Part shown: positions 258 to 56,189 of the stretch, piece after piece
Layout of the letters: each line of letters begins with the position of its first letter
Numbering within the stretch: position 1 is the stretch's first letter
From: Chionoecetes opilio
Lineage: Eukaryota > Arthropoda > Malacostraca > Decapoda > Majidae
DNA length: 64,000 nucleotides
Reading direction: 5' to 3'
Assembly: GCA_016584305.1 (NCBI GenBank)
Contig: JACEEZ010002651.1
Coordinates: 233,501-297,500, forward strand
Program-made: the position numbers and the translations under genes
Notes under the pieces: generated by a model
The model's input: only the letters and a program-made list of their open reading frames with translations
The model's database searches: none
Told to the model about the DNA's origin: nothing

Positions 258-1657
258 TTTTTTTTATTTTTTTTTATTTTTTATCACAAAGGACTGGCCA
301 AGGGCACAATTTTTTCTTTTAACACAAAGACCGCTTAGTTGCCAGTCCCTATAAAGAAGACAGTAAGAGAATAATATAAAAAAGAGGGGTGAGCCAATTT
401 AGTTCGGGAGGTGTCTTGTTACTCTTCTTTTGAAAAGATTTAAGTCATAGGAAAGTGGAAAAATAGAAACAGGAAGAGAGTTCCAGAGTTTACCAGTGAA
501 AGGGATGAAAGAGTAAAGATACTGATTAACTCTTGCATTAGGAAGATGGACAGAATAGGGATGAGAATGAGTAGAAAGTCTTGTGCAGCGAGGCCGCGGG
601 AGGGGGGGAGGCATGCAGTTAGCAAGTTCAGAAGAGCAGTGAGCATGAAAATAACGGCAGAAGAGAGCAAGAGAAGCAACATTGCGGCGGTGATTTAAAG
701 ATTGAAGACAGTCAGTCAGAGGAGGGGAGTTGATGAGACGAAAAGCTTTTGACTCAACCCTGTTTAGGAAAGCTGTATGAGGGGATCCTCCCCAAACATG
801 TGAGATATACTCCATACATGGGCGGATAAGGCCCCTGTAGAGAGCAAGCAATTGAGAGGGAGAAAAAAAAGGACGCAGACGCCACAGGACACCTAACTTC
901 TTAGAAGAAGTTTTAGCAAGAGATGATATGTGAGATTTCCAGTTCAGATTTTTAGTAAAGGATAGTCCTAGAATGTTCATTGTAGAAGAAGGAGACAGTT
1001 GAGTGTCATTGAAGAAGAGGGGATAGGTATCTGGTAGGTTTTGTCGAGTAGATAGGTGAAGAAATTGGGTTTTTGAGGCATTGAACAAAACAAGGTTTGC
1101 TTTGCCCCAATCAGAAATTATAGAAAAATCAGAAGTTAGGCGCTCGGTGGTATCTCTCCGTGAATCACTTAGTTCCTGTTGAGTTGGACGTCTAATAAAC
1201 GACGTTGAAAAATGCAGGATAGAATCATTAACGTAGGAGTGGATAGGGCTTTGAGTTAGACTTAGAAGATCATTAATGAATAATAGAAAGAGAGTGGGTG
1301 ATAGGACAGAACCCTGGGGAACACCACTATTGATAGATTTAGGAGAAGAACAATGTCCGTCTACAGTAGCTGCAATAGAACGGTTTGAAAGGAAACTTAA
1401 GAAGAAGTTACAGAGAAAATGATAGAAACCGAATGAGGGTAGTTTGGAAATTAAAGATTTGTGCCAGACTCTATCAAAAGCTTTTGATATGTCAAGGGCA
1501 ACAGCAAAAGTTTCACCGAAATCCCTAAAGGAGGATGACCAAGATTCAGTTAGAAAAGCTAGAAGATCGCCAGTAGATCGCCCTATACGGAAACCGTACT
1601 GACGATCAGATAGAATATTGTGAGCAGATAGATGCTTAAGAGTAGTAATCGCTTGTC
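258..1657 (-). mobile_element. Jockey-like LINE copy 1, 5' truncated
   Basis: Non-LTR reverse transcriptase on the minus strand. Continuous reading from about 1640 down to 399: RQYGFRIGRSTGDLLAFLT, then DISKAFDRVWHKSL, SGVPQGSVLSPTLF and a degraded catalytic box SYVNDSIL where F/YADD is expected; after it WKSHISSLAKT and PCMEYISHVWGG, typical of the RT C-terminal region, ending RRVTRHLPN. A 3' UTR and an A-rich tail (T-rich on the plus strand, about 258-290) follow. The endonuclease ORF and first RT motifs are missing. Loss of both catalytic Asp residues makes this copy inactive. It interrupts nuclease gene copy G. Confidence 0.88.
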
Positions 1658-1672
1658 GCGATTACTACTCTT
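1638..1672. repeat. Perfect 15-bp hairpin at the LINE 5' junction
   Basis: Arms at 1638-1652 and 1658-1672 are perfect reverse complements around a 5-base loop (TTGTC). One arm fits the LINE reading frame, the other the edge of the nuclease gene. It sits exactly at the LINE breakpoint. Confidence 0.85.
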
Positions 1673-2011
1673 GTATCCACCTTTCATGCACCACACACAT
1701 AGAGTCTTATCAAGAAGGACATCCATGCTGGATCGGAGCCTTTTAGGTGTACTGGCCTCTGGCCGAGGGTCTTGTTGATCTGATGCTTCATTTCTTTCAA
1801 GAAGTTCCTCGGATTTCTGTTTGCGTTTTTCAGCTTGACAGAGCTTGCGCTTGCTGGATAATGATGCGTAGCAAGTGCTATGCATGTGGTGACCTTTAGG
1901 TCCCTTCTCCCAATCCACATTTTCATGTACATGTTGAAACTTATCGAGTTCTCTCCATTTTAAAGACTTTTCCCGGATGGATTCCCACTTCTCAGGTGTA
2001 ATGTTTTCCAA
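1673..2011 (-). pseudogene. XPG/FEN-like nuclease gene copy G, N-terminus
   Basis: The minus-strand frame starts Met-Glu-Asn-Ile-Thr and reads VHENVDWEKGPKGHHMHSTC, a Lys-rich stretch (CQAEKRKQKSEE), then STPKRLRSS and LCVWCMKGG before it meets the LINE. The H-x-x-x-C and C-x-x-C pairs are the zinc-binding style N-terminus of the large family whose C-terminal half is copy B. The continuing frame past about 1670 runs into LINE sequence and is not real protein. Function is inferred only from family resemblance; no nuclease residues lie in this part. Confidence 0.7.
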
Positions 2012-2652
2012 ACTGTCATCTGCTGTACATGACTTTCCACAGAGTAAAATGCACTTGTATTCATCTAAATCCTAGTTTTGTAACTCTTCACTGTCTGTTA
2101 ATCTATTATCTATTCTTTTAGTCACTTTACAAGTCGGCGATTTTCAACAGACGGGCACGCGATGCATCTGAAACAGAAGAAAATTAATATTTCATATATT
2201 TTTTTTGCCATTTCATTGTTTCTGGGCATGCGATGCAGCTGGAAAAGTATGAAAAGAAATATTAGATATAAAACAGCATGTTTTCCCCATTTCGCCGTAT
2301 CATACTTGAAAATGTATGTCAGGATGTCCCTAAAACTCTAAAATAATACTTCCAATGAGATTATCATGCTAAAATAAGTGGAAAACAACACCTCACATAT
2401 CCATCTAGCTTATCTTGTGCCGAAGATATTACATTTCATGTTTTTCAGGATGGTGGACAGTGGCCATCCTGGATTTAGAGGTCAAAATGATCCCTAAACT
2501 GTACGATAACTATTCCAGTGGCTTTGTAATGGCAGAATTAGTAAAAAATGACACCTCATTCGTCTTTCTAACTCATCTGATGCCAGAGATATAACATTTT
2601 ATGTTTTTCAAGATGTTCTGGGCATGCGTTGCAAAAAGCCAGCATGTTGACA
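2012..2652. other. Non-coding flank of nuclease copy G
   Basis: No ORF of note. The phrase GGGCA(C/T)GCG(A/T)TGCA recurs at about 2154, 2224 and 2620, and GTGGCCATCCTGGATTTA near 2460 resembles the ATGGCCGCC-type motif of the other nuclease-element ends. Probably the 5' region of copy G's element, cut off on the right by LINE copy 2. Confidence 0.35.
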
Positions 2653-10235: not shown

Positions 10236-10386
10236 TAGAGCCTGCCGGCACATGAGACTCAGCCACCTGCCTAGCAACACGCCATGCACACATTCGCACG
10301 TACGCACTCACTCACTTCCACACACAAGCTCCCTCTATAATCTGCACCTTCAAATTGAGGCGCCTGGCTCTACAGTACTCAATAGG
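10236..10386 (+). repeat. Fragment of the LTR-like repeat found in the inverted arms
   Basis: Matches, on the reverse complement, about 29540-29680: shared phrases include CACTCACTTCCACA, CAAGCTCCCT and GAGCCTGCC(A/G)GCACA. Same family as the outer arms around nuclease copy A. Confidence 0.6.
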
Positions 10387-10593
10387 ACCGTTTTGGTTAA
10401 GGACTTAAGGGATAATAGATACTACATACCGCCAGCATTTTAATTTCCTAATTTCTTTTGTGGACCTTGGAGATTGTTCATATACGAGTGGTTGTTCATA
10501 AAAATTGTATGTACATATTCTTATAATTCATTTAAAGTTGGTTTCCTGCCTTATAAGGAGGTAACAACATATTTTGTGAAGTTTTGTTGATGT
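10387..10593. repeat. Dispersed module, inverted copy at 20066-20274
   Basis: Runs from ACCGTTTTGGTTAAGG to GTTTTGTTGATGT; the reverse complement occurs at 20066-20274 with most words kept (ATAGATACTACATA, CCTTGGAGATTG, GGTAACAACATATTT). About 210 bp, non-coding, with GTTTTG/CAAAAC-like ends. A small non-autonomous element is likely. Confidence 0.65.
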
Positions 10594-14698: not shown

Positions 14699-14889
14699 CT
14701 CAGGAAACCCGCCTCACCCAGTCACAAGGCAATGAGGGTTATTTCAATGGCTTGTATGTCCAGCAGACAACTAGCTTAACCTGGAAGTGGAGTTTATACA
14801 ATGGTTTTGGGTTTATTTGGGTCACTGAGTCCATAAATAATAAGAATCCGTTTGATGACACCCTGTCACCTTTGGGCATTTTTTCTAAT

Positions 14890-14912
14890 TTGCATAATAC
14901 CAAGATGGCCGC
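14890..14912. repeat. ATGGCCGC subterminal motif, left arm of B
   Basis: Reads TGCATAATACCAAGATGGCC, the reverse complement of the motif repeated at 17807, 17976 and 18141. It contains AAGATGGC, close to the YY1 core. Confidence 0.6.
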
Positions 14913-15076
14913 TTTTGTTCTACTGACTATACTATAATTAAGATATCTCGGCTTCTAGAAGGGATTTTAAAACAATCTGAAATGTTTAAACGGGGCTTTA
15001 AGACATTAGGAACCCAATGGAATAACATTTATTATGATTTGAAAACTCCTTCATTTGTTATTTGGTACATTCAAAG

Positions 15077-16843
15077 TTAGATCGGAGTTTTGATCCTCTA
15101 TCCACCAGCAACGAAGCAGACAAGATAGTGAACATTGTCAGTGGTCGAGTGGCACCTGTTTCAGTGAACGTGGATAAGACTGTGGCCATTGGGACCAAAC
15201 AAATGGAAGAATTCGAGGGTTCTTGGCCAGATGGCTTCTACAATCCCATTTCAAAGAAGACGGTGACAGTGCAAGTAACAAAGAAGCATGTGAATATTGG
15301 TACAGCAAAGATGTTCAATACCACCCTTCTCTTTTCACGAGTCATAGGACTCCAGGCTAGCTGCCGTGACACAATAGACATCAAGACATTACTATCGTAT
15401 GAGCTATCCCCGGTGCCTACATCGATGTTCAACGACTCGGGCGGGTGACATGAGAACGGGAAAGGCTCAGGCACAGTTGAAGAAGCAACTACAAGTTGAG
15501 ATGTCATCAAGAAACGTATTACCCAAAGTCAAATGTAGGGTGCTAGATGGTTCAGCTGTCCTCTGGGTGATACACTGGCCAGCCAATGGGACAGTCCGCG
15601 ACTTTGTTGTGAACTTCAAACAGTACATCCAACAGAAACTTACTTCTAGCGATGTCTATCTCGTGTTCGACAGGTACCAGGATTTCAGTACCAAGAGTAC
15701 GACCAGATGCAATAGAACAACAGAAGCAAGCAGAGTACATCGACTGGCTCTAGATACACCTCTACCCCCACAGAAAGCTGTCCTGACAGTGTCAGAAAAT
15801 AAATCACAGCTGATGGAAATTATCTGTGAAGAGCTGACCAGAGACACTACCTTCCATCGAGACTACACAATGACCCACAAACTTGTCATCACTAGCAGTA
15901 ATAACACACCTGTTGAAAAAAGTTATGGGGGAGTGGTGATCCACCGGGAAGACATGTCTACATCTCATGAAGAGGCAGACGGCTTCATTGTTCAACAAGC
16001 AGTAACAGTTGCGACTGAATGCCAAGTAGGCGTGTCAGTGATTGCAGACGACACCGACGTCTTCATCCTTCTGCTTCACCACTACTTTGAGCGACAGTTA
16101 ACCAGTCACATGATCATGGAATCGCCGATTCATGGTAGAACCGTTATTGACATACAAGGTACTGTTAAACAACAGCAGAGCATAGTAGATGGACTGTTGT
16201 CTATGCACGCCCTATCGGGTTGTGATACATGTGCATGCTATTTCGGTATTGGTAAAGTCAGGGTACTGAAAGTACTGCGAGAAGGCTACTCCTTGTCACT
16301 TTTGGGTGACATTCATGCATTGTTACCAGATATAACAAGACAGGCATCCAAGTTTGTGGCCGCATGCTATGGACACAAGGACCGTAGCAGTATGTCTGAG
16401 GCAAGGAAGAAGTCATGGGCCACAAAGGTTGGAAAGGGCACCACAGCCATACCGAAGCTGAAGTCTCTACCTCCCACAACAGAGCATTTGTGGAAAATGT
16501 CAAACGGGCACACCTGCAGGCAGCTGTGTGGAAACACGCTTTGGATCTAGACCCTCCCTCGCTAGATCCAACAGAACATGGATACGTTCGTGACGACAGT
16601 TCCAAGACTATGTTGCCTAAATCGATACATGAAGATGTGTCCCTTGCTCCACAAGAGATTCTGAAACTGATTCGCTGCTCTTGCGAAAGTGAAAGACCTT
16701 GCAAATCAGGAAGATGTGGATGTGTGAGTGGTAAACTACCGTGCACTGTATTTTGCGGATGTCATGCTAAGGACTATCGTAACGAACTGACTAAATGTGA
16801 TGTAGCCTCTGATGCAGATGACGACGATGACAATAAGACATAA
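15077..16843 (+). pseudogene. XPG/FEN-like nuclease, C-terminal half (copy B)
   Basis: Read across two frameshifts (about 15440 and 16480). The core matches flap-nuclease motifs in order: VLDGSAVLWVIHWP (first acidic strand), VYLVFDRYQDFSTKS, HEEADGFIVQQA (compare the EAEA box of FEN1), VIADDTDVFILLLHHY (compare the SxDxD box) and ALSGCDTCACYFGIGK (compare the FEN1 box ending G-x-G-x-K). The C-terminus holds a Cys cluster, CSCESERPC then CGCVSGKLPC then CGC. The family, common and unnamed in invertebrate gene sets, normally has about 500 more N-terminal residues with zinc-binding modules, lost here at the TIR. Nuclease fold is inferred from motif order; activity is unlikely given the frameshifts. 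Stop at 16841-16843. Confidence 0.82.
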
Positions 16844-16906
16844 AGGTATTAATGCCAACACAGACAAATGAGAGGAACATCATGTTGATAACTGTGTACA
16901 ATGTCA

Positions 16907-17472
16907 TCTATAATAATATAAGCGAAAGTGTGTGTGTGTGTGTGTGTCTGTGCGTCTGTGTGTCCTCGATAGGTTCCGCCCCCAGTGGCGCAATCCCATC
17001 ATATGGCACAGTTTTGGAACCAGGTCGACGAGTGGAACATTTTAAGGCCACTTTGGGGATGATCCGATCACTTTAATTTTTTTTTTTGTAGCCTTTTAAC
17101 GAGAATTGTGAAAAAAAAAATGGGTTGCGAGAATTGAGGAAACCTTTATGTAGGGTAATGGGTAATGAGTGAGTGAATGGGTGGGGTGATGGGTAATGGG
17201 TGTGGGGTGATGGGTGAGTGAATGGGTTGGGGGTGATGGGTGATGGGTGAGGGAATAGGTGGGGGGTGATGAGTAATGGGTGTGTGGTGATGGGTAAGGC
17301 GTTAATGCATACATTTCTACATCCATGATTTCAGGAAAGTTAGAAGGGGCTATCTGGAGTGTCTGTGTTTGGGGTGGTGGTGGTGTGGCCGAAGTGGTGG
17401 GCCGAAGGCCCACCAATAGTCCTCCGCAGGAGCTAGCCAAAAAGTCCGCCCGAAGGGCCGCTTTTCGGCTAG
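16907..17472 (+). mobile_element. Helitron-like non-autonomous element, copy 1
   Basis: Starts with TC after an A (TCTATAATAATATAAGCG), ends in CTAG before a T, with a GC-rich hairpin just upstream of the end (GTCCGCCCGAAGGGC). These are standard Helitron ends. Internally it has GT repeats, a T-run and a minisatellite of GGGTAATGGGTGAGTG-type units (about 17155-17300). Its reverse complement is at 34542-35249. 566 bp; no Rep/helicase gene. Inserted 64 bp past the stop codon of nuclease copy B. Confidence 0.8.
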
Positions 17473-17806
17473 TGTAATGGGTGTGGGGTATATACTATAT
17501 ACTATAAACTCTAATATCGCAGTAGTTAAAGGAGAAGAAATGTGAACGATTTATTTATGCGCCATGGCTTGGTCAGCATAGACACTACTAGAACATTATG
17601 ACTATTCAGTCACTTTATTTTATATAATGGATATCTGAAATTTGTTTACTTTATGACCTGGTGTCTGTCAGCTTAAATATATTCTAACGAATACGTCAAT
17701 GACAAACTACTAATATTATATTGAAGGTGTTCAATGATATTGTCACCATTTAGATCAATCAAGCATTTCATTCAAAAGTACAGCAAAATGTTAACAGATT
17801 GACAAC

Positions 17807-18164
17807 GGCCATATTGGAATATGCAAATGAAGCTAATATATTTAAATTGTAATATAAGATGTATTATATGGGACCTCTATTTTTTCAAAACACTAAAACA
17901 AATCATTTAAAATGTATCCAAAATTGTATCCAGAATGTGGTGACATAAAAAAAGTCTCCCGAGAGGTTTGACGGCGGCCATCTTGGATTTATGCAAATGA
18001 AGGATTTGTCAAATCATAATAAAAGTTATTCCATTGGGTTCCTAATGTCTTAAAGCCCCGTTAAAACATTTTATATTGGTTTTAAATCCCTTCTAGATGC
18101 CGAGATATCTTAATTATAGTATATTCAATAGAACACTGGCGGCCATCTTGGTTTTATGCAAATT
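17807..18164. repeat. Three spaced GGCCATNTTGG...ATGCAAAT motifs
   Basis: A conserved 24-25 base phrase (GGCCATCTTGGATTTATGCA) occurs at 17807-17830, 17976-18000 and 18141-18164, spaced about 165-169 bp. It holds an ATGCAAAT octamer in the first two copies (ATGCAAATT in the third) and the complement of a YY1-like core. Spaced subterminal motifs often bind transposases in DNA transposons; that role is inferred. Confidence 0.6.
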
Positions 18165-18275
18165 ATAAAAAATGCCCAAAGGTGACAGGGTGTCATCAAG
18201 CGGATTGTTAATATTTATGGTCTCAGTGACCCAAATCAATCAAAAAACATTGTATAAACTCTACTTCCAGGTATA

Positions 18276-18830
18276 ACCCTAAAATCCCATTTGGCTGCCA
18301 GACTATAAGGGTACATGGGGTGAAATAGGGTGTAGCATTGGGCTCGTCACAAAAATGTACACAGAGTCGTGTTCACCGTGACCTAATACACCTATACACC
18401 GATTTTCAGGAGAATCTGAGATTTTAAAATTTTCAACAAAATTTAAAGGATAACTTGCATTTTTTCTCGAAATCTGGAAAAAACATTTCCGTCACAAATA
18501 AATAAAAAATGGTTGGGAATGAATGTCTTAGATCTTGACAGATGCGTTATTGAAGACGTTTTCATGTCTCACCAACCGTTTGGGAGACAGACGGAAGAAT
18601 TACCTATATCATTTAATAAAAGTATTCGACGTTCATCCTATAAATTTGTGGCGTGAGTTTTACGCCCGGGATGCTCTTCCTGACAGGCAGCCCAGTGTTC
18701 AGCCGAGGGCCTGGGTGGATTGCCAACCATGGCTAACGAGCCCCACCTGCCCGGGGGGGTTTACGGGAAGGGGGTGCAAACCCCTCCCCAACCAATCTGT
18801 GTCAGGAACGGGCCATACTGCTCACCGTGC
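18276..18830. other. Non-coding spacer between elements B and A
   Basis: AT-rich to 18650, then a GC-rich segment with GCCCGGGATGCTCTTCCTGA, reminiscent of a conserved SINE phrase (ACGGCCGGATGCCCTTCCTG) that I recall from other animals. No gene recognised. Confidence 0.35.
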
Positions 18831-18968
18831 CAGGGCAGACATTCAGAGAGAGTTAAAGGCCACGGTTGTTCGCTCAACAACATCCCTCTATTTCTACACC
18901 CCGGAGCTCGTGGGTATTCCAGTACGAGACATGGCAGTGGCGGTACAGGGTTGCTATGGGCATCGATA

Positions 18969-19315
18969 GCTGATTGGCTGAGCGACTACAACGACGTCAC
19001 AGCCTCGCCAGCGAATCACAATTGTGTAAAAATAAACGTGCCAGCCAATCAGATTGTGTCTCAAACGTGTCAGCCAATCACAAGGCAGCAGCCGCGGCCT
19101 GCATTTCAAGGTCGTTGTACTTATTTCTATTTCTAGCTTATTCCATCATTCCTTCATCCCCTGCGTCACCTCCGTCGCTTCAACACTTGTTTCTACCTCC
19201 ACATACACGCGGGTAACACGCCGGTGGCTGTACTTCCTTGTATTCTAGCTATTAATTATTCCTTCCGAGTAATAGGGTGCTCTTCTTCTTCTTCTTGTGA
19301 TCTTTTTCGCTTGCT
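18969..19315. other. CCAAT-rich segment present only in the left arm
   Basis: Absent from the corresponding place in the right arm (33478-33485). Contains GCTGATTGGCTGAG and two CAGCCAATCA boxes, plus ACGACGTCAC, within about 110 bp. Looks like promoter DNA, e.g. of an LTR; whether it is an insertion here or a deletion on the right cannot be told. Confidence 0.45.
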
Positions 19316-19323
19316 AATCTATT

Positions 19324-19446
19324 CGTAGCTAGTCTTCCTGCCAGTTGGGGGAAGCCACCACCCCGGGAGGCGGATCACAAACCCCCGGCTAACACCCGGT
19401 ACCCATCACGGCTGGATGGACAAGGGCTTGGGTTTTAATAAGGAAA
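19324..19446 (-). mobile_element. SINE body, no tRNA head
   Basis: Reverse complement of the SINE body at 63120-63240 and 33341-33470: words such as GGCTAACACCCGGTACCCAT and GACAAGGGCTTGGGTTTTAA. Its partner sits at the mirror position in the right arm. Confidence 0.8.
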
Positions 19447-20300
19447 AGGGCGCCACTATACATTGTCTGCCGCGGAGCCGTGCGCGTGGTGGTACCTGGC
19501 ATCGCTAGTCGCTACCCGCGCGGGTGAGATGCCACAGGTCACCACTCTTATCACATCACCCCAAAACATTATCACCACAAGGGGCTGGGTTTGTTATATG
19601 GTCTTATTTCGTTTGTATACTTGCCCTGTTCAGTTCTTGAGTCAGAAAACATCATATATACTCAAGTTATGAGTATTTTTATGTATATTGCGTTCTCAAT
19701 ACCACCTTATAGGCAGTCGCCGTGTTTTGACAGCTTAACGTCTTTAAGTACGTCATCAATCTCCACGCAGAATACCAAAACAGCTGATGGCAGTCGCTAG
19801 GTCGTGAAGTATGGACGTTAGCGTCTCTGAATGTGGCCCCAGGGACGCTGAACCCCCTCCCCTGTAGGTATTAAACCTCTGCAGGCTGCCCACTATTTTA
19901 GCCCTAGCTGGGGCTGGATGGCCATTGACTCAATAGTAAGTTCATCTGCCCTTAAAGATGGTCTTATTTTTAGTCCATCTGGGTGTCCAGCACACCCTCC
20001 TCACTGCTAGAACCAACGGGGAGCCGACCCCCGCTGTGGCCGACCCCGTTTAGTGGCCGACGATCCGACATCAACAAAACTTCACGAAATATGTTGTTAC
20101 CTCACTATAAGGCACGAAACCAACTTTAAATGAATTATAGAAATATGTACATAATAATGTTATGAACTCGTATATGAGCAATCTCCAAGGTCCAAAAAAC
20201 AAATTCGGAAATTATAATTCCGGCAGTATGTAGTATCTATTATCCCTTAAGACCTTAATCAAAACGGTTCTATTACAGGGTAGAGTAATGGTGGGAGGAG

Positions 20301-20600
20301 ATGAAAAGGAGTCGGCAACAACGGCAGCATGAAGAGCCCGGCACCACTGCTGACCAGCTGATAGCTCAGCCGCTACCTTCACACACGCCACCGCCTTCAG
20401 CTATACCACCCCATCTTCCTCACCATTCACTAGCAACAGCTGCCAAACAGTCTCACACCACGGATTTTGCCGCCATGCTGAAATAGATGGATAATCAGGA
20501 GAAAAGACGGCAGTTAGATGAGCAGCAGAGACGTGCGGATTAGACATGCGTTTCCAGGCGCTCTTGGCTCATCCCGCCTCACCTCGCCGTTACATCACCT
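20301..20600 (+). pseudogene. Possible gypsy gag N-terminal remnant
   Basis: Reads KRSRQQRQHEEPG, a Pro/His-rich stretch (PSHTPPPSAIPP), DFAAMLK, stop, then MDNQEKRRQLDEQQRRAD. The Glu/Arg/Gln-rich helix after DFAAML resembles gag N-termini of decapod gypsy elements as I recall them. A degraded equivalent lies inverted at about 29300-29480. Weak call. Confidence 0.4.
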
Positions 20601-23472
20601 ACGTAGTCCAGGACCTCGCCTGTAGACCCGTTTGCAAAATGGTGTTGGGGGGATTTCTCACTTGATCTTGGTTAATGGGTCCCTGGACATGAAATATCAC
20701 CGCGGTGCATGTCCGCCATTGCGCTACGAATGGCGCTATGGTTAAATCAAATGTGACCGCCGCCAGCCGAGATAGAAATACAACTTTTGTAGTTATTATT
20801 TGGAATAGATACACGTGGAATACCTCTAAACTAACTAATTTGAGGTTGAGGAATTCATTTTTGGTGTTGTTTTGAACATTCGGGGTCACCTTGAGCTTCA
20901 AATGTCAGGATCAATTTGGCCATAACCTGGCCGTTTTTAGTGATAGCAACAAAGTCAAATTAAACAAATTCTCACACGTTTAACTCATTTCTGATATTAT
21001 AATATATAGTAGATAGAAAGTCATAATGACCCTGATAAATATATTTCAATGTCATTGTAAATAAAATTGTATCATTAAGACTGACCAATAATGTTTATTG
21101 TGTGTGGAAAATAACAGATTAGACCATGTGTGAATATAACGAGATCCATATGAAAACCCAAACCAAAAGCAAATTAACATATTTCTATAGGTACACCATA
21201 TCATTAGTATTCGTACGTTTTTCTTTCAGTGCCAAGTTTTTACATTATGAATTATCTTTCTTTCCATGGCAAAAAATGAAGCACTGAACTCCAGCCGAAT
21301 GACACCCACAGAGTCGAGTGGCGCACCTGCCTGCACACTTGCATGTTGTGAGCAGTTTGTGGCAAGGGCTTCAGGCATTTTGATGGCAGCAGTGTATCAA
21401 AATACTCCTTCCATCCATGCCCCACTGGTTTTAGTACTGCCTCATGATCTTCGGCTGTCACAAGTAGTTGGCGTGCCTTGAAGACCAGAAAGAATCCTCT
21501 TTGAATGTGGCCTCTGATCACATTGCTTGTAGGAGGGAGTGAATCAATTCCAGCACTGCCACCTGTATAGTTCTCTGCCTTCAGTTGGTCAAATGTCTCA
21601 GCAGTCGTAGTTGATCTAGCTCCTGCCCAGACACGTATCAAGTACCTCTTTGCTAGTGCTGTATCTTGTTCTGACAAGGTGTCTGTATCTCCAAAGTTTG
21701 TCAGATACTGTACTGGGTCACATGCCATAGCTGCATGCTTATTGCCCACCTTACTCATGCAGTCGTTTCCAGTTAATATATGTGCTTTGATCACTGCCTT
21801 GGCCAGTGCTGCTGCAAGGTGAGAAATCACTTGATGCAGTGGAAGCATGCGCCGCTTTTCACCAGTACGATACTGTTGCCACATTTCTCTCAACCTCAGA
21901 GTTTGAAGATATGGAGTGTACTGTAGCAGTAATGCAAAGGTGTCTGTGTCAATTGGAGAATACAATAATTATCTTGCACTGTTTCACACGAATTACCCAC
22001 TCCACATGCACCACCAGCCTGCTGTCTGCTTCTTCAATCCAGCTCAGCAAGTCGGGGACTTCCTCGGAACCAGTTGCTTTTGCTGGAAGCACCTCCTCAT
22101 CTGAAACAATAGAGCTGGTGATGATGTTACATTGCTGCAGTCTCGATGGGACACAATATATCGAGCTAGTAGCTGGAGATTCTTCTTATTTTCCTGAGAT
22201 GCCCAGAATTTGTCAATTTGCTGAGGCATGGGTGTATCTCTGCACATACCAATGATGTTAATGCCTGTTGTTGGATCAGTATGCCGCATGCGCTCCCCTT
22301 CCTTGAGAGTCATCAATGTAGGAGTCAAGTACGAGATGGACAAACTGTGATTCTTGGGAGAGACATGATGTTGAGGTAATGATTGTATTTATGACAGCAC
22401 CCATATTAGGAAATTACGCCAGAGCCACCTGTCGCATCTTGCACATAAAAATCTACCACAACATAAGTGGCAAGAGTAGACTTGTGGACTCCATTGGGTG
22501 AGGTCCAGCTTAGGTTCAATCTCCCGAACCAGTAATGACTTGTTGGTGTGAGATGGAAGGTCACCATCAAACAGTGGAGATGTTGTCAGCACATCGTGAT
22601 AAATCTGTCTGAGGTCCATTCCCATATCCTTAGCAATGTCCATGCTCCTCTGAGCTTCCGCTACGTCCGTGGATGAAGGGTCCTTTTCCTTTAGAATAGT
22701 TGCTGGTGTCTTTTGTGGTTGGTCTGTAAAACGAGGCAGCTTACGTTTCGATATGGTTGCATTAATATTCTTGCTCTTCTCGACTAACCTCTCCTGCCTG
22801 TATGAGCGGTAGGCATGCTCACCATTTTCGAGACATTTGAGCCGACGCACTGCAACCTCTTTATGAACTTTGTGAGCAGGTTGTGCAGTGGCACAGGCAC
22901 ATTAACCATCACTGAGTAAGGATTCTGACGGCATTAAGGATTCTGGCATTACATATGACTCCCACCACGTAGTGACCTCCAGGACCCTTTGACACTCGCT
23001 GGATGGTATGTTCGACTTTCATATCACTTCCGACAGCACATAACCAGCCTGAGCGATCACTAACAACCCATTGCCCTTTTGAGAAGCGCTGGTAGAGCTC
23101 AGGATGTGTGAACTCCAGAACCTTTCTTTGTTCTAGATACCATGATCCATGACGTAGATAGCTGATGCAGTCACATTCTGCAAATATCGGCATAGAATCT
23201 TCGACAGTAGCAACAAGTAGATCCAGTTTCCTTCTCTTTTAGAAACCACAGCATTCTTAATGATACTGACCAACTGCAGCCAAACTCCAAAGAATTGGCA
23301 GAGCTCAGACTTGGCCTCGCACTCCTTCTCAAACTACTCTCGAAAGTCCTGATGCAACTTCTCAATCTGTCCAATTATGGCTTCAAACTGTTCTGAACAA
23401 CGCCGGTTTGCAGCCAGTGTGATTTGGAGCATCTCCACCTGCGCCAACTCTGGATATGCAGCTTTGTCCTTG

Positions 23473-26216
23473 TAGTCTAGGGGCCAAAACTGAGAAGTGT
23501 CTTTAAAATCGACTTTCGTGGTACCCATGCGGTAACAGCTTCATAATATACCAACTGAAAGGAAATTTTGTCTACTTTTTAAATCTGGCAATGAAAATTT
23601 CGAAATCGTGTAGCTTCATGGTGATTTTTTGGTTACCATGACAACCACATTACATATTTCAGACCAACATGTTTAGTCTAGTAGTCCAGTGGACCCCACG
23701 TGCACCCAATGGACAATCTAATGAGACCTACTTTTTTAGATGCACAAATATGTCTCGAAAACAAAAATTTATGTTAACACTGTCAACTAATGTCCCATGG
23801 GGTTCGTATGGCGGCCATTACGATATTATGGCCGCCATATTTGATTTTAAATATTTGACTTTCTCGAAATTACCAAAATGTCCATAAAATCACCAATAAT
23901 GTAGTTACAAATTTAATTTTGGTGCCCACGTGACAAGAATAACATGGCCTATTGTAATAAGAACAATTAATGCAGTAATTGGTACAAGTTTAGTCATGGA
24001 ACGGCAAAAACCTAAAAAAAGGCGGAAAAATTACTTTGGTTTCGCCAACAGCTTTCAACATAAATGACAATAACTTCACTAATATATAACATACTGGTCA
24101 GTTTAACATATCAAAATCATCGTCTATTATTCCCCCATCTGATGCAGTCAAACAATTGACATACATATATGATTATCATACACTAATTGTTACCAATGTA
24201 ACCCACCCCCCTAGTGAAACTTTACTTACATCAAATACATACATACAATCGATAAAACTTAGTTTTATATTAAATTTTACCAGTTAATCATGGGCAACTA
24301 GATAATACAACGTAGTATTGTTCAGTTGCCATTTGTAAACACTGTTTTGCTCCATATGTCATGTCATATATGTATATATATTGTATATATATGTTTGTTT
24401 CTCATACAATACTGTATTGCTCATGTGTATCGCTAACCTGTATGCGATGTCAATTAACACTACTTTCCTTCTCCTTAGATGAATCGGTGATAGTGATAGT
24501 GTAGAACTGTAGATGGTATGTCAGTGACCTAACATTCTGCGTGATACATCCGTAGTTCTTTCTGGTGGTGGAGTATAACTGAACTAAATCATGGCTAGCA
24601 CGAGGAAACGAAAAAGCGACAAAATATCAGCCAGATCTGAAAATCCTAAATGCCCATCATGTATCGTACACGCAATAGACATCCGAGACTATGGTCCCTT
24701 GACATCTTTCAGAAATGTGAGAGGAAACCCAGATGAAAAATTAGCATATCTACATGAAATCCGTGAAAATCGAATGGCTGAACCTCTCAATTCACCTCGC
24801 CGTATGGAAGCAGTGTGTGCTCTGATACCAGAGACTCTCGAAGGCGTTGACTTGGAGCAGCAAGCTCACAGCAACACACGTTGACTTGGACACAGCAAAC
24901 TTACATCGCTTGAATGATTCGACCGTAGCATCTATGTCCACGAAGCATCACTCTCCGCGCAAACTGTCATCTGCTGAGAGTTCCCAACTATTCCCACCTG
25001 AATGTATGTTCTGCGAGAAGTTTGAAATAAAGGTATCTGGAAAAACCGAGAGACCCATCAAATTCCTATCATGGAAACACAAAGAGCCTGCTTGGAAAAG
25101 CATCGAGTCCCAGGCCCTTGAACTGGGAAAGACTCGTCTATACCGACAGGTGAAAGGAAAGGACTTATTTGCCGTTGAAGCACAGTTCCATTCCGAATGC
25201 AGAACGTCCTTCACCACGGAATATCGAAATCACATCCTGGCACAGGAGCGAGAGGAGAACCGTAACGTAGACACTGATCAGGCCCATAGGGCTGCTGCCC
25301 ATATCGCAGCCTTCAACTTGGGTTCAGGATTTGACTCTCTGTTATTTGTAATTATACCAATTGTCAATTACTCACTTCTACTGACAGTGTACCTAGCTGC
25401 CCTACATCACTTGTTAAAGTTTAATAGAAAGGAAACATTGTTTTCTGACTTTTATCGAATGTTTGTATTTGACAACATAAAGTTTCACTAGGGGGGGTGA
25501 GTAACATTGGTAACAATTAATGTATGATAATCATACATGTATGTCAATTGTTTGACTCTATTAGATGGGGAAATAATAGACGATGATTTTGATATGTTAA
25601 ACTGACCAGTATGTTGTATATTAGTAAAGTTATTGTCATTTATGTTGAAAGTTGTCGGCGAAACCGAAGTAATTTTTCCGCCTTTTTTTAGGTTTTTGCC
25701 GTTCCATGACTAAACTTGTACCAATTACTAAATTAATTGTTCTTATTATAATAGGCCATGTTATTCTTGTAACGTGGGCACCAAAATTAAATTTGTAACT
25801 ACATTACTTGTGACTTTATGGACATTTTGGTAATTTCAAGAGAGTCAAATATTTCGCGATCGACGATGGCCGCCATACGAACCCCATGGGACATTAGTTG
25901 ACAGTGTTAACATGTAAAAGATTTTTTTCATGATTTTTTTTTCTAGACATTTTGTGTATCTAAAAAAGTAGGTCTTAATAGATTGTCCATTGGGTGCGCG
26001 TGGGGTCCACTGGACTACTAGACTAAACATGTTGGTCTGAAATATGTAATGTAGTTGTCATGGTAACCAAAAAATCACCATGAAGCTACACGATTTCGAA
26101 ATTTTCATTGCCAGATTCGAAAAGTAAACAAATTTTCCTTTCAGATGGTATATTATGAAGCTGTTACCGCATGGGTACCACGACAATTATTTTTTCAGCC
26201 CTTGGCCCCTAGACTA
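23473..26216. mobile_element. Element with TIRs of about 740-750 bp inside copy A
   Basis: Starts TAGTCTAGGGGCCA (23473) and ends TGGCCCCTAGACTA (26216). Arms run about 23473-24224 and 25480-26216 and share long blocks such as CATGCGGTAACAGCTTCATA, GTGGACCCCACG and CCAATGGACAATCTA. Flanked by TTG on both sides (CAA in the gene's sense), consistent with a 3-bp target duplication. It splits nuclease gene A after AADVLASQ. The gene's frame is not restored by simply removing it, so the gene had other damage. The interior holds one coding region (24591-25491). Confidence 0.85.
24591..25491 (+). pseudogene. Captured N-terminal zinc-binding region of the nuclease family
   Basis: Two overlapping readings joined by a frameshift near 24860. 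First: MASTRKRKSDKISARSENPK, CPSCIVHAIDIRDYGPL. Second: LFPPECMFCEKFEIK, FLSWKHKEPAWKSIESQA, LFAVEAQFHSECRTSFTTEY, HRAAAHIAAFNL. The C-x-x-C followed by F-H-x-x-C spacing is the treble-clef-like module seen at the N-terminus of copies A, C and G. The frame then drifts into non-family residues and ends in the right TIR. No nuclease core, so the element is non-autonomous or internally deleted. Confidence 0.72.
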
Positions 26217-29075
26217 TTGTGATGCCAGAACATCTGCCGCTGAAGTGAACGAATCAGGCACTCCACAATCAACATTCGTGTTAGAGCCCGGACATAATGG
26301 CTGCCGTTCAAGACTGACTATCACGCCAGGTCCAAAAACACCACACTCGATCAGTGCGTCATCTGGACCGGAACCATGGAGCAGTTTGCCCTGGCACTTG
26401 AGCAATACACGAGTCCAATGGAAATGGCCCAAACTGAGAAATAGATCATTGAACTGTTCTGTCCCATGCCGGTAAATATCTGCGGCTAGGTTGAACACAC
26501 CTTCATCACACCATACCACCATTGATGCCTGATTCAGCTGTCTGCGTATACTCTGAAAGTTGGTAAGACAGTGTCTATCAGTTGCTCGCTCAGTGATAGG
26601 TCTTGGTATGACAGGGAGGAAGCCGACACGCATCATTGGCACCACAGCAGATGAGACAAGTGTGTGCACAGCTGCCCATATATGAGGATCTCCTGCGGAC
26701 AGGCCCAGACGGGTCAAACTGATCAAAAATGCCCGCATCACAGCTACACTTCGGGCAGTTTGCATATCGAACAACGTCGCATGGTTGTTTTCAGGATGCA
26801 ACATCGTGTCTGGAGGCAAGGTAGGTCGAACCACTGGTTTAGCATTGGGAGGTATCTCTTGACATGACAATGAATTTTGCAGGGATAAATCAGTGCGGCT
26901 AAGTCCTGTACTTGATACTGGAGGTTTATGGAGGGGCTTGTTCACTGTGGCATCTTGGAACAGTACTAAGGCTGCATAGTGTGAACCCTCTGTACCAGAG
27001 AGTTATGATTTATCTGCATAGTCGGAGTTGTCTATGCCTGCCATCGTGTAGTCCTCCCTAGTAAAAGTACTTGGAATGTGTGTCTCTCCATCTTCTAAGC
27101 ATTTTACAGCATAGCTGGAAAGAAGGCTACGGGTATTAATAATGGTCTGGTAGCTTGTACATGAGCCTATACTGTTGAGTACTGTGAGGAATTAAAATGG
27201 TGTTTTGTTCACTTTTTTGTGAATGTTGTACACATGCGTTTGGAATAGACTGTGCAGCTCTGTACTCATGTGATCTCTAGCCCATGTCTCCTGTTGTTCC
27301 TGTGAAGGATGCTGGTCTGAAGGCAGATCATCTTGCATGAACTGTTGCTGGTGTGGGAGCTGTCCTTCTTCTGCGTTAGTGTCTTCACCAAGATAGGCTG
27401 GATGAGCTCCTCCAGATTTCTAATACGACTTTGGAATAGCTTGTGTCTTGGGGCCATGAACATAGTTGCTAAGAATGTGAGAAGAGGCACTGGCCATCAT
27501 TGTTCCCTCCCATGATGCCTTTAAGTCAGTACTGTCACATAAGCTGTCTTGCAGACCAAAACCGACGTCCATGTGTGAGCCTCTCAACTTGTTGCCAGCC
27601 TCTCTCAGTATGTCCTGATTCTTCAACTTGATGGCTTGGTCAGCAGCTGTGATGTCAGATGAAAAGAAGATGTCAAGTTCATTCACTCTACCATTTGTCC
27701 AGATTTTGACCGATTCGCAATAATGGGAGATGATAAGCTGTTTCATATCACGGGTTTGAAAGGTACTTATAAGCACCTCACCTTCCTGTAGCAGACTCAA
27801 TGCAAACTCTACAATATCAGTGATAGTGCAACATTCTCCCCTCATCAAAATTTTGTCAATATATGGGATAGTGCGTGTGAACAGCACATGCTTGGTATTG
27901 GTGATAGCCAATAACAATTGGTGATTAGCCTTTCCAGTGTTTCAAGTTTGATATCACGTTCGTATTTACACATGTAGTTTTGACGGCAGAGGTTGTGGCA
28001 ATCTCTCTCTCTGTATATATATATATCTGCAGAGACGACTGATTTGACAGAGCTGGCTTTGTCATCTCTCAGTCGATCTGCAATTCGTGTAAAGACATCG
28101 TCTTTGTTGTGCTTTGCAGCATCAATGAATTTCTTGGCACTAATATACTCGCAAATGATGTATTTGTCACGGCATTTCTTGTGTTCGACATTTGCACATA
28201 TAACACAGGGCAGTGTTCTTGGATCCTTGTCACAGCTTGTCACAGCACAAGGTACAACACTTTTACGAAGGGTTTTCCTAAATCCAACACTTTCAGAAGA
28301 CTCACTTTCTGTGTCACACACCATAGGCTCTTCAACTCTTGTGCTCTTTTCCTCAATAGCTTTAAGTTTGCCAGAATGTGTGTAAAATTTATAGCATTTG
28401 TTGGTATTATGGTAAACAAACATACCACTGTCATCAGTCTCCTCTTCTTCCCCTTTAATTAACACTTTTGATACGCTTTGAAACAATATCATTACGAATT
28501 TTTGCAGGTCTTTTCATTCTTGCACGTCCTGTCTTTTCACTAGTTACAAGTACTTTGTTATCTTCTTGACAGATAATGCATATTATTATTGGATTGACTA
28601 CGTCCTCCTCTTCCATTGAGGTGACCAAATTCATCCTACTGGGTCCTGATAATGCTGGATATTCCATGATGGTCAATGAAATGAAACTTCAATCATTCCA
28701 GAACATCATGCACATGCCTGAAAAGAAACATAAAAAAAACCGTGGGACTCACTCTGAGTAAAAATGGGAAATTCATGTGCCATTGAAGACCCTGACATTT
28801 GAAGGGCAAGATGACTCTGAATGGTTAAATAAACATCATAAATGAATGCCTAATCTTCAAATTTCTTGGATTAGAGGTATTACATGTGTATCTATTAATA
28901 ATAAAAACGTTATCTTTTTATCTCAATTGGCGGCGGCCATATTTGATTTAGCCATAGCGGCATTCGTGGCGCGATGGTGGACAAGCACCTCGGTGATTTT
29001 TTATGTCCAGGGACCCATTAACCAAGATCAAGTGATAAATCCGCCAACACCATTTTGCAAACGGGTCTACAGGCG

Positions 29076-30165
29076 CGGTACATGATCAACGGGCCCTAAC
29101 GCGAGCCCTGATGCCCCGGTGTCAAAGTTGCCACGTCGCTCAATAGCCTCAGCAACACCAAAGGTGTCTACCCATACCATACCAGTCCTCTCACCTACTG
29201 GACTGGACAGACGCCTTCAGCGTTGACAGAGCTGTGGGTCGGCGTAGACGGCTTGACGCCGGGACACCAAGGATCGTGTAATGGCCTGTAGGTGGCGTTC
29301 TTGACCAGGTGAGGCGGGGTGACCCTCGCCAAGGACGCTTTGAAGCATCCTCATGTCACTGTTGCTCATCTTCGCGCCGTCTTTCCTCCTTATCATCCAC
29401 CCAGATAAACAGATGGGGCGGTAGCGTATGTGAAGGTGATAGCGTACCTGTCAGCTGGTCAGCAGTAGTGCTGGGCACTTCACGCTGTCTCTATTGCTGA
29501 CGCCTTTTGCTTACTCACGTCATTACTGTGGCCTGTATTTTAGTATTGTAGATCCAGATGCCTCAAAATTGAAGGGCGGATAATAGGGAGCTTGATTGTG
29601 GAAGTGAGTGAACGCGTGTGTGCGTGGCGTTTAGCTAGGTGAGTCACATAAGTGGCTAAATCTCAGTGTGCTGGCAGGCTCGGATGAGGGACGATGTGGC
29701 AGTTAGAGTTTTTGATAGGCTGAGCCTAGATTTGCATTAGAAAACGGGGATGTCCCTGGGGCCACATTCAGAGACGCTAACGTCCATGCTTCACGACCTA
29801 GCGACTGGCATCAGCTGTTTTGGTATTCAGCGTGGAGATTGATGACGTACTTAAAGACATAATACGGCGACTGCCTAAGGGGTGGTGTAGAGGACGCAAA
29901 ATACATAAAAATACTCATAAATTGAGTATATATGATGTTTTCTGACTTAAGAACTGAACAGGGCAAGTATACAAATGAAATTAGGCCATATAACAATCCC
30001 ATGCGCTCGTGGTGAGTTTGTTTTGGGGTGATGGGCCGAGTGGTGAACGGCGGCATCTCATCCGAGGCCACCTCGTCTCACCACACCGGCGGGTAGCTGC
30101 CACACACCACCATGAGCACGGCTCCGCATCAGACTAAAGGTATAATGGCACCCTTTTCCTTAATA
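29076..30165 (-). repeat. Right outer arm: LTR/gag-like block
   Basis: Reverse complement resembles 19441-20617: CTAACGTCCAT(A/G)CTTCACGACC, AGTGAAC/GTTCTTAAGTC-type words and GCACTACTGCTGACCAGCTG. Includes about 200 bp (29090-29300) with no partner on the left. No intact ORF. Confidence 0.7.
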
Positions 30166-33100
30166 GAGGTAGAGGCCGAGGGCGCAGCAATCGCGCCCCC
30201 GACCCGGTTTTGCCGGGGGCCCCGACCATGCAAACCCCTCCTATGCCGACGCAGGGGAGGGGTCTGCCTATGACGAGTGCGGGGCAAAGCCCTCGGGAAT
30301 CCCGCACTCTAAATCAAGTGGTAGGGCCCCCTAGCCCAACTTTTTCTTATCGGGGTGGCCGGGGCGGTGCAGAGGCGGCGCCTGCCCGTCGAATCACTCC
30401 TGGGATCAACCTGCGGAGGGTTCTTCGTGTGGGCTCGTGGAACGTTCTGAGCCTCTCAGACGATCATCGACTACCTCTCCTATCGGACGAGCTCAGTAGG
30501 CTGAGGGTGGATATAGTGGGACTCTCTGAGACGAGGAGGCCTGGCAGTGGCGAGACTAGCAGTGGGGGTTACACCTACTACTGGTCCGGCATGAGCAATG
30601 GTCACCGTGTACGGGGAGTAGCTATAGGCATCTCCAGCAAACTGCAGCCGTCAGTTGTTGAGTTTACTCCGGTTGATGAGCGTATAATGCGGGTGAGGAT
30701 GAAACACACTCTGGGTTTCATGTCTCTTGTTGCAGTGTACGCTCCTACCGAGATGCGTAAAACTGAAGAGTAGGAGATGTTCTACGCCAAACTCGACTCT
30801 GTATTAGACCAGTGTCCTCCTCGGGACACACTCATTGTCTTGGGCGACTTCAATGCTACTACTGGCACTGTGAGAGATGGCTACGAGTTGTGTGTTGGTC
30901 CCCATGGCTCCGGTACCAGAAACACCAACAGTTCTCTGCTTCTGAACTTTGCAAGGTTCAGCAGGTTGAGAATTGGAGGTTCTTGGTATCAGAGACCAGA
31001 GCTGCACCGCTGGACATGGTAAAGTAGTGCCGGAGGGGTAGCTAAGGAGATCGACCACATCCTCGTTAGTACTCGTTGGAGGATCCTCCAGAACTGCAGG
31101 GTTTACCGGAGTGCTGAGTTCTTTGGAACAATCACAGACTTGTTGTTGCTACACTTAAGCTTCATGTCAAGTCCAGAAGAATCTCAAGAGGTAACCATAC
31201 TGTGTTTCATCTTGAAAAACTGAAGGACTTGATATGTGCTCATGAGTATGCGGTGGCAGTCTCAAATCGGTATGATGTGCTCGGTGCTCTCGGGGATCCT
31301 GTAGAACTGTGGGATACCTTCAAACGTGAAACTCTACAGGCTGCCAAGGAGTGTTTTGGGGAGCGCCCGAGGTCAAGGCGTGGTTTTGTCTCTACGGAGA
31401 CGCTGGAGAAAATCGAGGAGAGTCGCGCTGCCAGGCTGGCTGGGAACCGGGACCAGCACAGGGCTCTGTCACGCCGGACTAGAACCCTCCTGAGGAGAGA
31501 CAAGGAGAGGTATGTCAGGAGTCTCGCTGAGGATGTCGAGGGTCATTTGAACGCTAATGACCTCCGACCCGCCTACCGAGCCCTGAAGAAGCTCCGTTCC
31601 AAGTCTCCTTCTCGGGCGAGTGCTATTCGAACAGCAGATGGGCGCCTCGTGTCGGACATGGATGGGCAGATGGCTCGTTGGGCTGAGTACTTTGGGCAGT
31701 TGTTCACGGTGGACCCTCCAACTGAGCAACTTCACACCACTGGGTTACAGGCAGTGGATGCCGATCCTCCCATTGACGAAAGCGCACCCTCTCTTGCCGA
31801 AGTCAGAGAGGCTGTAGCAAAGTTGAAGGGTGGAAAGGCAGCTGGTGTTTGTAATATCAGTGCGGAGCTCCTCAAAGCTGGGGGTGAGGCCATGATCCAC
31901 GGGTTGCATGCTGTCCTGACTGCCGTGTGGCAATCAGGTACCATTCCTCCTGACTGGAAAAGGGGGCTGGTCGTCCCTATCTGGAAAGGGAAAGGGGACC
32001 GTCAGGACTGCAACAATACCGCGGTATTACACTGCTCAGCGTACCAGGCAAGGTGCTTGCCCATCTATTGCTGACACGAATTCGCAGTCATCTGGTGAAG
32101 CATCAGAGACCTCAGCAGTCTGGGTTCACGCCTAGTAAGTCAACAACGGACCGTATCCTAGCGCTTCGTGTCCTGGTGGAACGCCGACGTGAGTTTCGAC
32201 AGGGGATGCTTGCAGCCTATGTTGATCTCAAGAAGGCGTTTGACTCAGTGCATCGTGAGTCACTCTGGGATCTTCTGCGACTTCGAGGGATTCCTGCAAG
32301 GACTATTGGTTTGATAACTGGTCTGTATCCTGGGACTGAGAGTGCTGTGAAGTGTGGGGCAGGTGTATCCAGCTTCTTTCCTGTGAATACAGGAGTGAGG
32401 CAAGGGTGCGTCCTTGCCCCATCACTTTTCAACGCTTGCATGGACTGAGTATTGGACAGGGTTGTAGATCAAAGTGATTGTGGAGCATCCGTCGGCAACA
32501 CCAAGATCACTGATCTTGTTTTTGCCGATGATGCAGTAATCTTTGCTGAGTCGCTGGAGGTCCTCGTGATGGCTCTCGAGGCGCTGCACGAGGAGGCAAA
32601 GCCTTTGGGACTTGAGGTCTCCTGGCTCAAGACCAAGGTCCAGGTGTTTGAAGACTTACTAGATGAAGCAGTACAGTCTGTTCATGCGTGTGGCGAGGAC
32701 ATTGAGATCTTGGAAAGTTTACATACCTTGGTTTGCGCAGTCCATAATGACGGCGGGTCACGTCAAGAAGTCTTACGGTGGATTGGCATAGCCCATAGTG
32801 TTATGGACTCGCTCAGCGGGAGTATTTGGCGTTGTCGGTACCTGTGCAGGAGGACAAAGATCCGGATCTTCAAGTCGCTTGTGATCCCTGTCTTTCTCTA
32901 TGGGGTTTTGAGACATGGACACTAAATACTGACTTGAAGAGACGAATCAATGCCTTTGGTAATAAGTGTCTTCGCAGAATCATGGGGTATCGCTGGGATG
33001 ATTACGTGTCAAATCAGCGATTGCACCGTGAGACTGAATCGAGGCCTATTACCTGCATAGTCCGTCAGCGCCAACTTCGGCTATATGGGCATGTGGCACG

Positions 33101-54372: not shown

Positions 54373-54478
54373 ATACAGGTGGCAGTGCTGGAATTGATTC
54401 ACTCCCTCCTACAAGCAATGTGATCAGAGGCCACATTCAAAGAGGATTCTTTCTGGGCTTCAAGGCACGCCAACCCCA
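54373..54478 (+). pseudogene. 106-bp scrap of the nuclease gene
   Basis: Plus strand reads GGSAG(I)DS-LPPTSNVIRGHI(Q)RGFF, the same words as copy A at 21470-21570 in reverse. Sits between element T and the RTE upstream half. Confidence 0.85.
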
Positions 54479-54489: not shown

Positions 54490-55645
54490 TAACACTTATT
54501 ATAATAAATTATCGAAGGCATTGATTCGCCTCTTCAAGTCGAAATTTAGTGTCCATGTCTAACATCCATAGAGTAAGATAGTGATCACAAGCGACTTCAA
54601 GATTCGGATCCGTATCTTTGTCCTTCGACACAAGTATCCGCAACGCCAAATACTCGTGCTGATCTAGTCCATAACACCTTGGGCTATGTCAAACCGTGGT
54701 AAGACTTCTTGGCGTGACCCCGCCGTCATTATGGATTGCGCTACCAAGGTATGTAAAACTTTCCAAGATCTCAATGTCCTCATCAGACGCATGATCAGAC
54801 TGTATACTGTTTAATCTTGTAAGCCTCGAAACACCTGGACCTTGGTCTTGAGCCAGGAGACCTCAAAACCCAAAGGACCTCCATCGACTCAGCTAAGATT
54901 ACTGCATCATTGGTAAAAACAAGATCAGTGATTTTGGGGTTGCCGAGGGAGGCTCCACAATCACTTTGATCTACACAACTTTGCCCAATACACAGTCCAT
55001 ACAAGTGTTGAAAAGTGATGGGGTAAGGACGCACCCTTGCCGCACTCCTGTATTTACAGGAAAATAGCTGGATACATCTTCCCCACACTTCACAGCACTC
55101 TTAGTCCCAGAGTACAGCCCAGTCATCAACCTAATAATATCGTAGCAAGAATCTTGCGAAGTCGCAGAAGATCCCAAAGTGACTCATAATGCACTGAGTC
55201 AACGCCTTCTTGAGATAACATAGGCTGCAATCATCCCCTGTCGATACTCACGTCGGCGTTCCACCAGGACACAAGAGCTAGGATACGGTCCGTTGTTGAC
55301 TTACCAGACGTGAACCCAGACCGCTGAGGTCTCTGATGCTTCAGCAGATGACTGCGTATCCGTGTCAGCAATAGATGGGCAAGCACCTTGTCTGGCACGC
55401 TGAGCAGTGTAATACCAGGTAATTGTTGCAGTCCTGACGATCCCCTTTCCCTTTCCAAATACGGACGACCAGCCCCCTTTTTCAGTCAGGAGGAATGGTA
55501 CCTGAATGCCATACGGCAGTCAAGATAGCATGCAACCCGCGGATCATGGCATTACCCCCAGCATTGAGGAGCTCCGCACTGATATTACAAAACCCAGCTG
55601 CCTTTCCACCCCTCAACTTTGCTACAGCTTCTCTGACTTTGTCAA
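54490..55645 (-). mobile_element. RTE LINE copy 4/5, upstream part
   Basis: Minus strand retains KVREAVAKLRGGKAAGFCNI, LLTRIRSHLLKHQRPQRSGF, NTGVRQGCVLTPSLFN and a decayed FADD box (LVFTNDAVILAES: both catalytic Asp affected). 5' truncated at about 55645. Confidence 0.88.
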
Positions 55646-56180
55646 GTGAGTGAAATAATTGCAACAAAAATTAAACCTGTTGTATGATATTCCTAACACC
55701 TTAGTAGATTACATATCAAAAGTACAGAAAATTGGAAGTGGTGAAAGATGGTACAAAATTCACCGATTTGAGAAACCTATCGCACTCTCATGCGTTGTTG
55801 ATCATAACAGATTTTTCTTCAAGAACACTTATAATCATGAAGGTTTCCAAATGTAAATGTCGTGATTTTTACTGTTTGCCACATAATGCTCTGCAGGAGC
55901 ATGAACAAAATAATTTCCTCTTATATTAAGTGAACATAGACATAATTAATGAAATTTTTTGCCATCCGAAAAATGCATCTTTTTTGTGCCGGCTTCATAT
56001 TCTTTTTATATCTTGGAACTTAATAATATAATTAGTATGTATTCTAAATTAACACATGAGCAACGTGGGCTGGAAGAGTAGCAACATAATTATATAGATG
56101 ATGACACGCTGCTATTGTGATATATGTAAAGCACCTGCGCGTATACATGTCATTCATTCACTATCCACAAAGCTGTCTTC
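55646..56180. other. No recognised gene
   Basis: Plus-strand readings here (for example KIGSGERWYKIHRFEKP at about 55719) are short and unplaced. Could be the 3' flank of nuclease copy C. Confidence 0.35.
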
Positions 56181-56189
56181 AGACGCCAT

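Follow-up and report, generated by a model that had tools for sequence, protein, structure and literature searches.

DNA transposons of the AcademX kind are reported to carry an XPG-like nuclease. In PMC10045372, AcademX elements are reported to produce target duplications of 3 to 4 bp and AcademH elements duplications of 9 to 10 bp, a difference that is tied to the encoded nuclease or helicase. PMC9587614 places Academ among the superfamilies with a DDD/E transposase, and PMC10294476 gives Academ elements a mean length of 5,565 bp in a bivalve library. Here, a 64,000-nucleotide stretch of the decapod Chionoecetes opilio genome (GenBank assembly GCA_016584305.1, contig JACEEZ010002651.1, positions 233,501 to 297,500 of the forward strand), referred to below as the window, was analyzed. 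It contains three elements with terminal inverted repeats (TIRs), termed A, B and C, and a further copy, G, all carrying pieces of one gene family with a nuclease of predicted FEN/EXO1/XPG fold. The most probable explanation, to which we assign a probability of about 0.68, is that the elements of the window belong to DNA transposons of the AcademX type and that several of their subfamilies have decayed in the C. opilio genome.

Elements A, B and C carry one gene family

Element A occupies positions 14776 to 18276. Its arms (left TIR, 14776 to 15057, plus strand; right TIR, 17994 to 18276, minus strand) are about 282 bp long and were 91% alike over 282 columns outside gaps in the inverted-repeat scan; a 26-base repeat lies beside the right arm, apart from the match to its partner. 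The gene pieces of A, all on the plus strand, comprise a pre-nuclease region at 15038 to 15445 (92% identical to residues 250 to 375 of the relative P0128), a nuclease frame at 15378 to 16547 and, past a frame shift, a C-terminal CxC cluster at 16400 to 16840 (97% identical to P0002). The FEN1-type motifs that the earlier note had read in order were all present in the nuclease frame of A, as LDG, FDRY, EEAD, DDTD and GCDT..GIGK, and the CxC cluster was present in its C-terminal frame. Seven acidic residues of the A frame (D57, D98, E199, D201, D225, D227 and D283) appear in the order of the active-site acids of EXO1/FEN1 and the FEN/XPG superfamily. Across the nuclease region copy A was 94% identical to P0128, a protein of 839 residues, and P0003, a C. 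opilio protein, was 93% identical to copy A across 56% of the query.

A database search with the A frame returned 122 relatives, 120 of which were listed, and a search with a coral relative returned 259, of which 120 were listed. Profile A1 was built from 27 of the 120 listed A-frame relatives and the A frame itself. From 230 collected proteins, profiles A2 (101 proteins, no window sequence), A3 (71 proteins and the A frame) and A4 (47 proteins) were built, with rows picked by length, coverage and diversity. Against A1, the three frames of copy A gave E values of 8e-163, 1e-45 (the pre-nuclease region) and 2e-38 (the CxC cluster), the first of which is circular because that frame is itself a member of the profile. 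Against A2, the same frames gave E values of 2e-144, 4e-52 and 7e-40. The reading frame of copy A is shifted at least twice, and its gene is incomplete at the front. Since family homology starts at about 15065, immediately after the left TIR and at the equivalent of P0128 residue 250, the gene front of A, its middle domain included, has been deleted.

Element B (20613 to 29079) carries its gene on the minus strand. Its arms of about 300 bp (left TIR, 20613 to 20912, plus strand; right TIR, 28788 to 29079, minus strand) were 83% alike, or 85% outside gaps. In coding order, B begins with an N-terminal Cys/His module at 27848 to 28513, where the profile match is weak (E 0.014 for the N-terminal profile domain, 0.073 for the whole peptide) and order and a CxxC...HxxxC pattern, judged by eye, agree. 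An open frame at 27423 to 27941, placed between this module and the DDE-like domain by order, had no profile match. The DDE-like domain follows in two parts, its center at 26217 to 27002 (WCDEGVF and LGHFH, aligned with the conserved D and H; A2 E 6e-8) and its end at 22912 to 23238 (SDMKVEHT, aligned with the conserved D and E; A2 E 1.5e-9), so that B retains the second D and the E of the domain. Beyond a decayed frame at 22392 to 22901, which was likewise placed by order (E 3.5, not significant), lie the decayed first half of the nuclease at 22047 to 22388 (A1 E 0.004), its second half with the motifs DTD, TGND and VGNK at 21255 to 21968 (A1 E 1e-14), and the CxC cluster at 21248 to 21370 (A1 E 8e-4). 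B is a decayed copy interrupted by element C, and without C it measures about 5.7 kb. The earlier note's treatment of A and B as gene copies held in that both are family members, but A is frame-shifted without its gene front, and B is decayed, broken by C and of uncertain border.

Element C (23473 to 26216) sits within B. Its arms of about 750 bp (left TIR, TAGTCTAGGGGCCAA, 23473 to 24224, plus strand; right TIR, 25478 to 26216, minus strand) were 89% alike by BLAST and 95% outside gaps. The trinucleotide TTG stands directly before the left arm (23470 to 23472) and again after the right arm (26217 to 26219), giving a perfect 3-bp target duplication beside a perfect 15-base terminal match. C holds the N-terminal part of the family protein only, on the plus strand: a probable first Cys/His module at 24588 to 24884, assigned by eye from an open frame with a CxxC pair, and the second N-terminal Cys/His module at 24826 to 25488 (E 9e-5 with profile A2, 5e-4 with the N-terminal profile and 2.5e-4 with P0215). 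When the arms of the three elements were compared at a threshold of E ≤ 1e-5, each matched its own partner alone; the three repeat types are thus unrelated. Collectively, these results bear out the earlier proposals that the genes lie in TIR elements, that A and B share one gene type between long but unrelated inverted repeats, and that a third TIR element carries the N-terminal module.

The family is widespread and divided into divergent subfamilies

The nuclease half of B retrieved 88 database relatives, the best of them 65 to 76% identical. A profile of B and these 88 relatives matched all eight A-side proteins tested (E 1e-36 to 4e-16), which establishes the A and B types as homologous. 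Their nucleases are only about 21% identical to each other, in line with the divergent subfamilies already proposed for the window. Copy A was 48% identical to the fish copies P0035 and P0036, and B was 61% identical to the mussel copy P0245. Because A and B are closer to fish or mussel copies than to each other, the sequences suggest that the subfamilies either predate their host species or moved between species.

Named sources of the relatives include Chionoecetes opilio, Petrolisthes cinctipes, Nymphon striatum, Dreissena polymorpha, Porites lobata, Branchiostoma, Aldrovandia affinis and Synaphobranchus kaupii, and several copies occur in named species. The family thus extends beyond decapods to fish, coral, mussel, amphioxus and sea spider, and the earlier idea of a decapod branch was not supported. 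Two members, P0027 and P0060, are annotated as "Tesmin/TSO1-like CXC domain-containing" proteins. Residues 5 to 35, approximately, of P0119, a C. opilio protein annotated as Lachesin, matched the protein of copy A in 28 of 31 columns; this gene model fuses transposon sequence to an Ig-domain gene, either by error or as an exonised transposon. Three family members, P0006, P0152 and P0189, are labelled as proteins of bacterial metagenome-assembled genomes and are probably animal contamination in the bins. No relative was confirmed in short-peptide-pattern scans of viral and GTDB contigs, including two of GTDB contigs; these scans speak neither for a viral or bacterial origin of the family nor decisively against it.

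The predicted protein joins a nuclease to a DDE-like domain

Overlapping relatives piece together a protein of about 1,480 residues, although no single complete protein was seen. Its domains run in the order two Cys/His modules, middle domain, nuclease and CxC cluster. Structure prediction, one of the checks proposed earlier, supported the reading of the nuclease: in structure searches, the predicted models had the FEN/EXO1/XPG fold. In the model of P0130 (1,140 residues, mean pLDDT 90.6), the strands and helices of the middle domain follow RNase H order. D96 sits in the first strand and D271 just behind strand four; a long helical block then precedes the helix that bears E474. Among alignment rows with a letter at the position, D96 (43/43), D271 (65/65) and E474 (86/86) were invariant, as was D99 (43/43); H300 (66/68) and D470 (84/85) were conserved. 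DDE transposases with an insertion, such as those of hAT and P elements, have this layout. From the predicted model, we infer that the middle domain is an RNase H-like DDE transposase domain.

The Pfam model DUF6589 matched 15 of 47 relatives at E ≤ 0.01, with a best value of 3.5e-7. Among nine proteins examined for it, P0153 scored above the curated cut-off (29.7 versus 27 bits) and P0130 and P0142 below it. Since the matched stretches, where displayed, fall in the middle domain, DUF6589 probably represents a portion of a transposase. A Pfam search of ten window frames gave one match at chance level (E 0.1), and an NCBIfam search of five proteins gave one match, below the cut-off. Sequence searches of the PDB returned no match with frame A or profile A3 and two insignificant matches with profile A2, one of them to a 5'-3' exonuclease (E 0.7) in the right register.

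Borders around element B and other copies in the window

Element B is enclosed by further inverted pairs, at 20275-29536 and 19436-30165. The insertion that contains B (20275 to 29536) starts with ACAGG, ends with CCTGT and is flanked by ATT at 20272-20274 and 29537-29539, its border having been set by eye. It breaks a repeat that has an uninterrupted relative at 10238-10593 on the minus strand (87% alike on the left, 72% on the right), and the join score alone leaves this border unfixed to the base. Its outer arms (20275-20612 and 29080-29536) were 70 to 75% alike in their matching parts, below B's own arms, and are either the outer TIR of B or a separate element that B entered. A pair at 19436-19846 and 29752-30165 (81% alike, 88% outside gaps) in turn encloses this insertion, so that C lies inside several nested inverted pairs.

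Copy G (56179 to 60409, minus strand) is decayed, with pieces from the N-terminal modules to the CxC cluster; matches to profile A2 run in order from 60409 to 56182 along the strand. At the first D of the middle domain, G reads DNVE. Besides fragments, the 64-kb window thereby holds A, B and G and a partial copy, C, four in all. A and C resemble deletion derivatives that have lost opposite parts of the gene; B and G resemble longer copies that have decayed. Thirty-two residues encoded at 54279-54473 (plus strand) are nearly identical to part of the B coding sequence and mark an apparent loose fragment of a B-type element. Weak matches to the N-terminal Cys/His module at 31-273 and 1583-2071 (minus strand; E 0.0055 and 0.24) are possibly further family fragments.

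The motif ATGGC[CG]GC occurs 12 times in the window on both strands, and 10 occurrences fall within the inverted arms listed here, which cover 4,267 of the 64,000 bases; the independent cases are fewer than 12, as the arms repeat each other and some matches overlap. This motif could be a candidate binding site. Decayed LINE-like endonuclease or reverse transcriptase frames were recognized by eye at 399-1661 (minus), 30138-32448 (plus) and 54795-55485 (minus).

Discussion

The analysis shows inverted repeats, one gene family, a predicted nuclease fold with its conserved acids and a clean 3-bp duplication at C. In the mechanism that we propose for them, the product of an intact relative would be a single protein of about 1,480 residues with Cys/His modules, a DDE domain, a nuclease and a CxC cluster. 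The two N-terminal modules, presumed to bind zinc and DNA, would probably recognize the TIRs, and the DDE domain (D96, D271 and E474 in P0130) would cut and join the element ends with a 3-bp stagger. The FEN1/EXO1/XPG-type nuclease may trim strands or 5' flaps, be it at the ends of the excised element, in the donor gap or in the target gap, and the CxC cluster may help in DNA binding. The nuclease thus conceived probably assists a DDE transposase. Copy A, with a nuclease and no DDE domain, and element C, with N-terminal modules only, would be products of deletion that owed their movement to full-length copies.

Several points weigh against assigning these elements to AcademX. The comparison with Academ covered described features and not sequence; the fit is good, and membership is likely. 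The DDE assignment comes from secondary structure; in each full-length structure search the best 50 rows were filled by nuclease matches, with no transposase among them, which does not count against a DDE fold. The repeat scan gave no convincing TIR for G, where the best inverted pair (55975-56001 and 60625-60651) spans 27 bases at 74%. The outer border of B is ambiguous, with 20613 and 20275 as candidates. The duplication at C is indirect evidence for nuclease-bearing elements, as C carries N-terminal modules only. When the flanks of C were joined, all three frames were open (156, 78 and 43 codons), which makes their openness uninformative, and none of the three matched ten relatives above shuffled sequences (z 0.2 to 0.7); the placement of C in the gene of B therefore follows from order, not homology. 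By eye, no clean target duplication was found at A, and at 20613/29079 B has at best an imperfect 4-bp pair, TCGC/GCGC. The insertion at 20275-29536, with its ATT flanks and an uninterrupted relative of its target, could be part of a different element. Duplications of 3 to 4 bp are consistent with the one or two clean 3-bp cases but unproven for the nuclease-bearing elements. The Academ fit suggested in the earlier note stood for the features given in PMC10045372, and for target duplications it was clean at C and unproven at A and B.

A separate superfamily of DNA transposons, with an Academ-like design of DDE domain and XPG-type nuclease but outside Academ, is unlikely, although it would accommodate three elements with wholly different TIR ends. 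No protein of this kind, combining DDE domain and XPG-type nuclease, was described in the titles and abstracts of the openly licensed literature, which was partially covered; in the same coverage nothing was found on DUF6589, nor on Academ together with XPG and transposon. Against a separate superfamily, a nuclease with a 3-bp duplication is what PMC10045372 reports for AcademX, and the element length fits that given for Academ in PMC10294476. It is an equally tentative idea that the family forms a widespread animal superfamily apart from Academ, in which an EXO1-like nuclease joined to a DDE domain does essential strand processing in transposition.

The proposal that the nuclease alone is the mobility enzyme, and the middle domain no transposase, is very improbable. 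Copy A retains TIRs and nuclease without the middle domain, whose fold was assigned from secondary structure and not from a structure search; however, frame shifts in A give it the look of a dead deletion copy, and the middle domain keeps D96, D271 and E474 without exception and in the order of an RNase H fold. The nuclease as mobility protein, as first suggested, became doubtful once full-length relatives were found to have, apart from the nuclease, a domain whose D, D and E are invariant, in DDE-transposase order, and a nuclease-only mechanism was rejected on that ground. Least credible of all is a host nuclease gene family caught by chance in unrelated TIR elements, which would suit the unrelated TIRs of A, B and C and their absence at G but not the four copies and fragments in 64 kb, the gene pieces between the own TIRs of A, B and C, or the several copies in the named species; a single-copy host gene was rejected because several copies occur in the window and in other species.

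The proposed assignment gives a likely meaning to DUF6589 and to many animal proteins that are unnamed, "uncharacterized" or, as P0027 and P0060, named after a Tesmin/TSO1-like CXC domain. Why a cut-and-paste transposon carries its own FEN/EXO1-type nuclease becomes testable, as does the suggestion, made in PMC10045372, that an accessory enzyme sets duplication length.

Comparison with known systems

The family nuclease differs from FEN1, EXO1, XPG and GEN1 in that it is part of a large mobile-element protein, is about 10 to 17% identical to them in structural alignments and has no significant sequence match in the PDB. DUF6589, of unknown function, differs in being weak in most relatives, with only part of its 410-position model covered. 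AcademH belongs to the same superfamily as AcademX, but a helicase replaces the nuclease and duplications are 9 to 10 bp long, according to PMC10045372. The closest likeness is to AcademX. TIRs, a feature of AcademX, are present at A, B and C and were not found at G, and here the TIR ends differ among subfamilies. The elements share with AcademX, as characterized in PMC10045372, the form of a TIR DNA transposon and a nuclease, and the 3-bp duplication at C lies in the AcademX range of 3 to 4 bp. The DDD/E transposase expected for Academ from PMC9587614 may correspond to the middle domain with its D, D and E, and B without C, at about 5.7 kb, is close to the Academ mean of 5,565 bp in PMC10294476.

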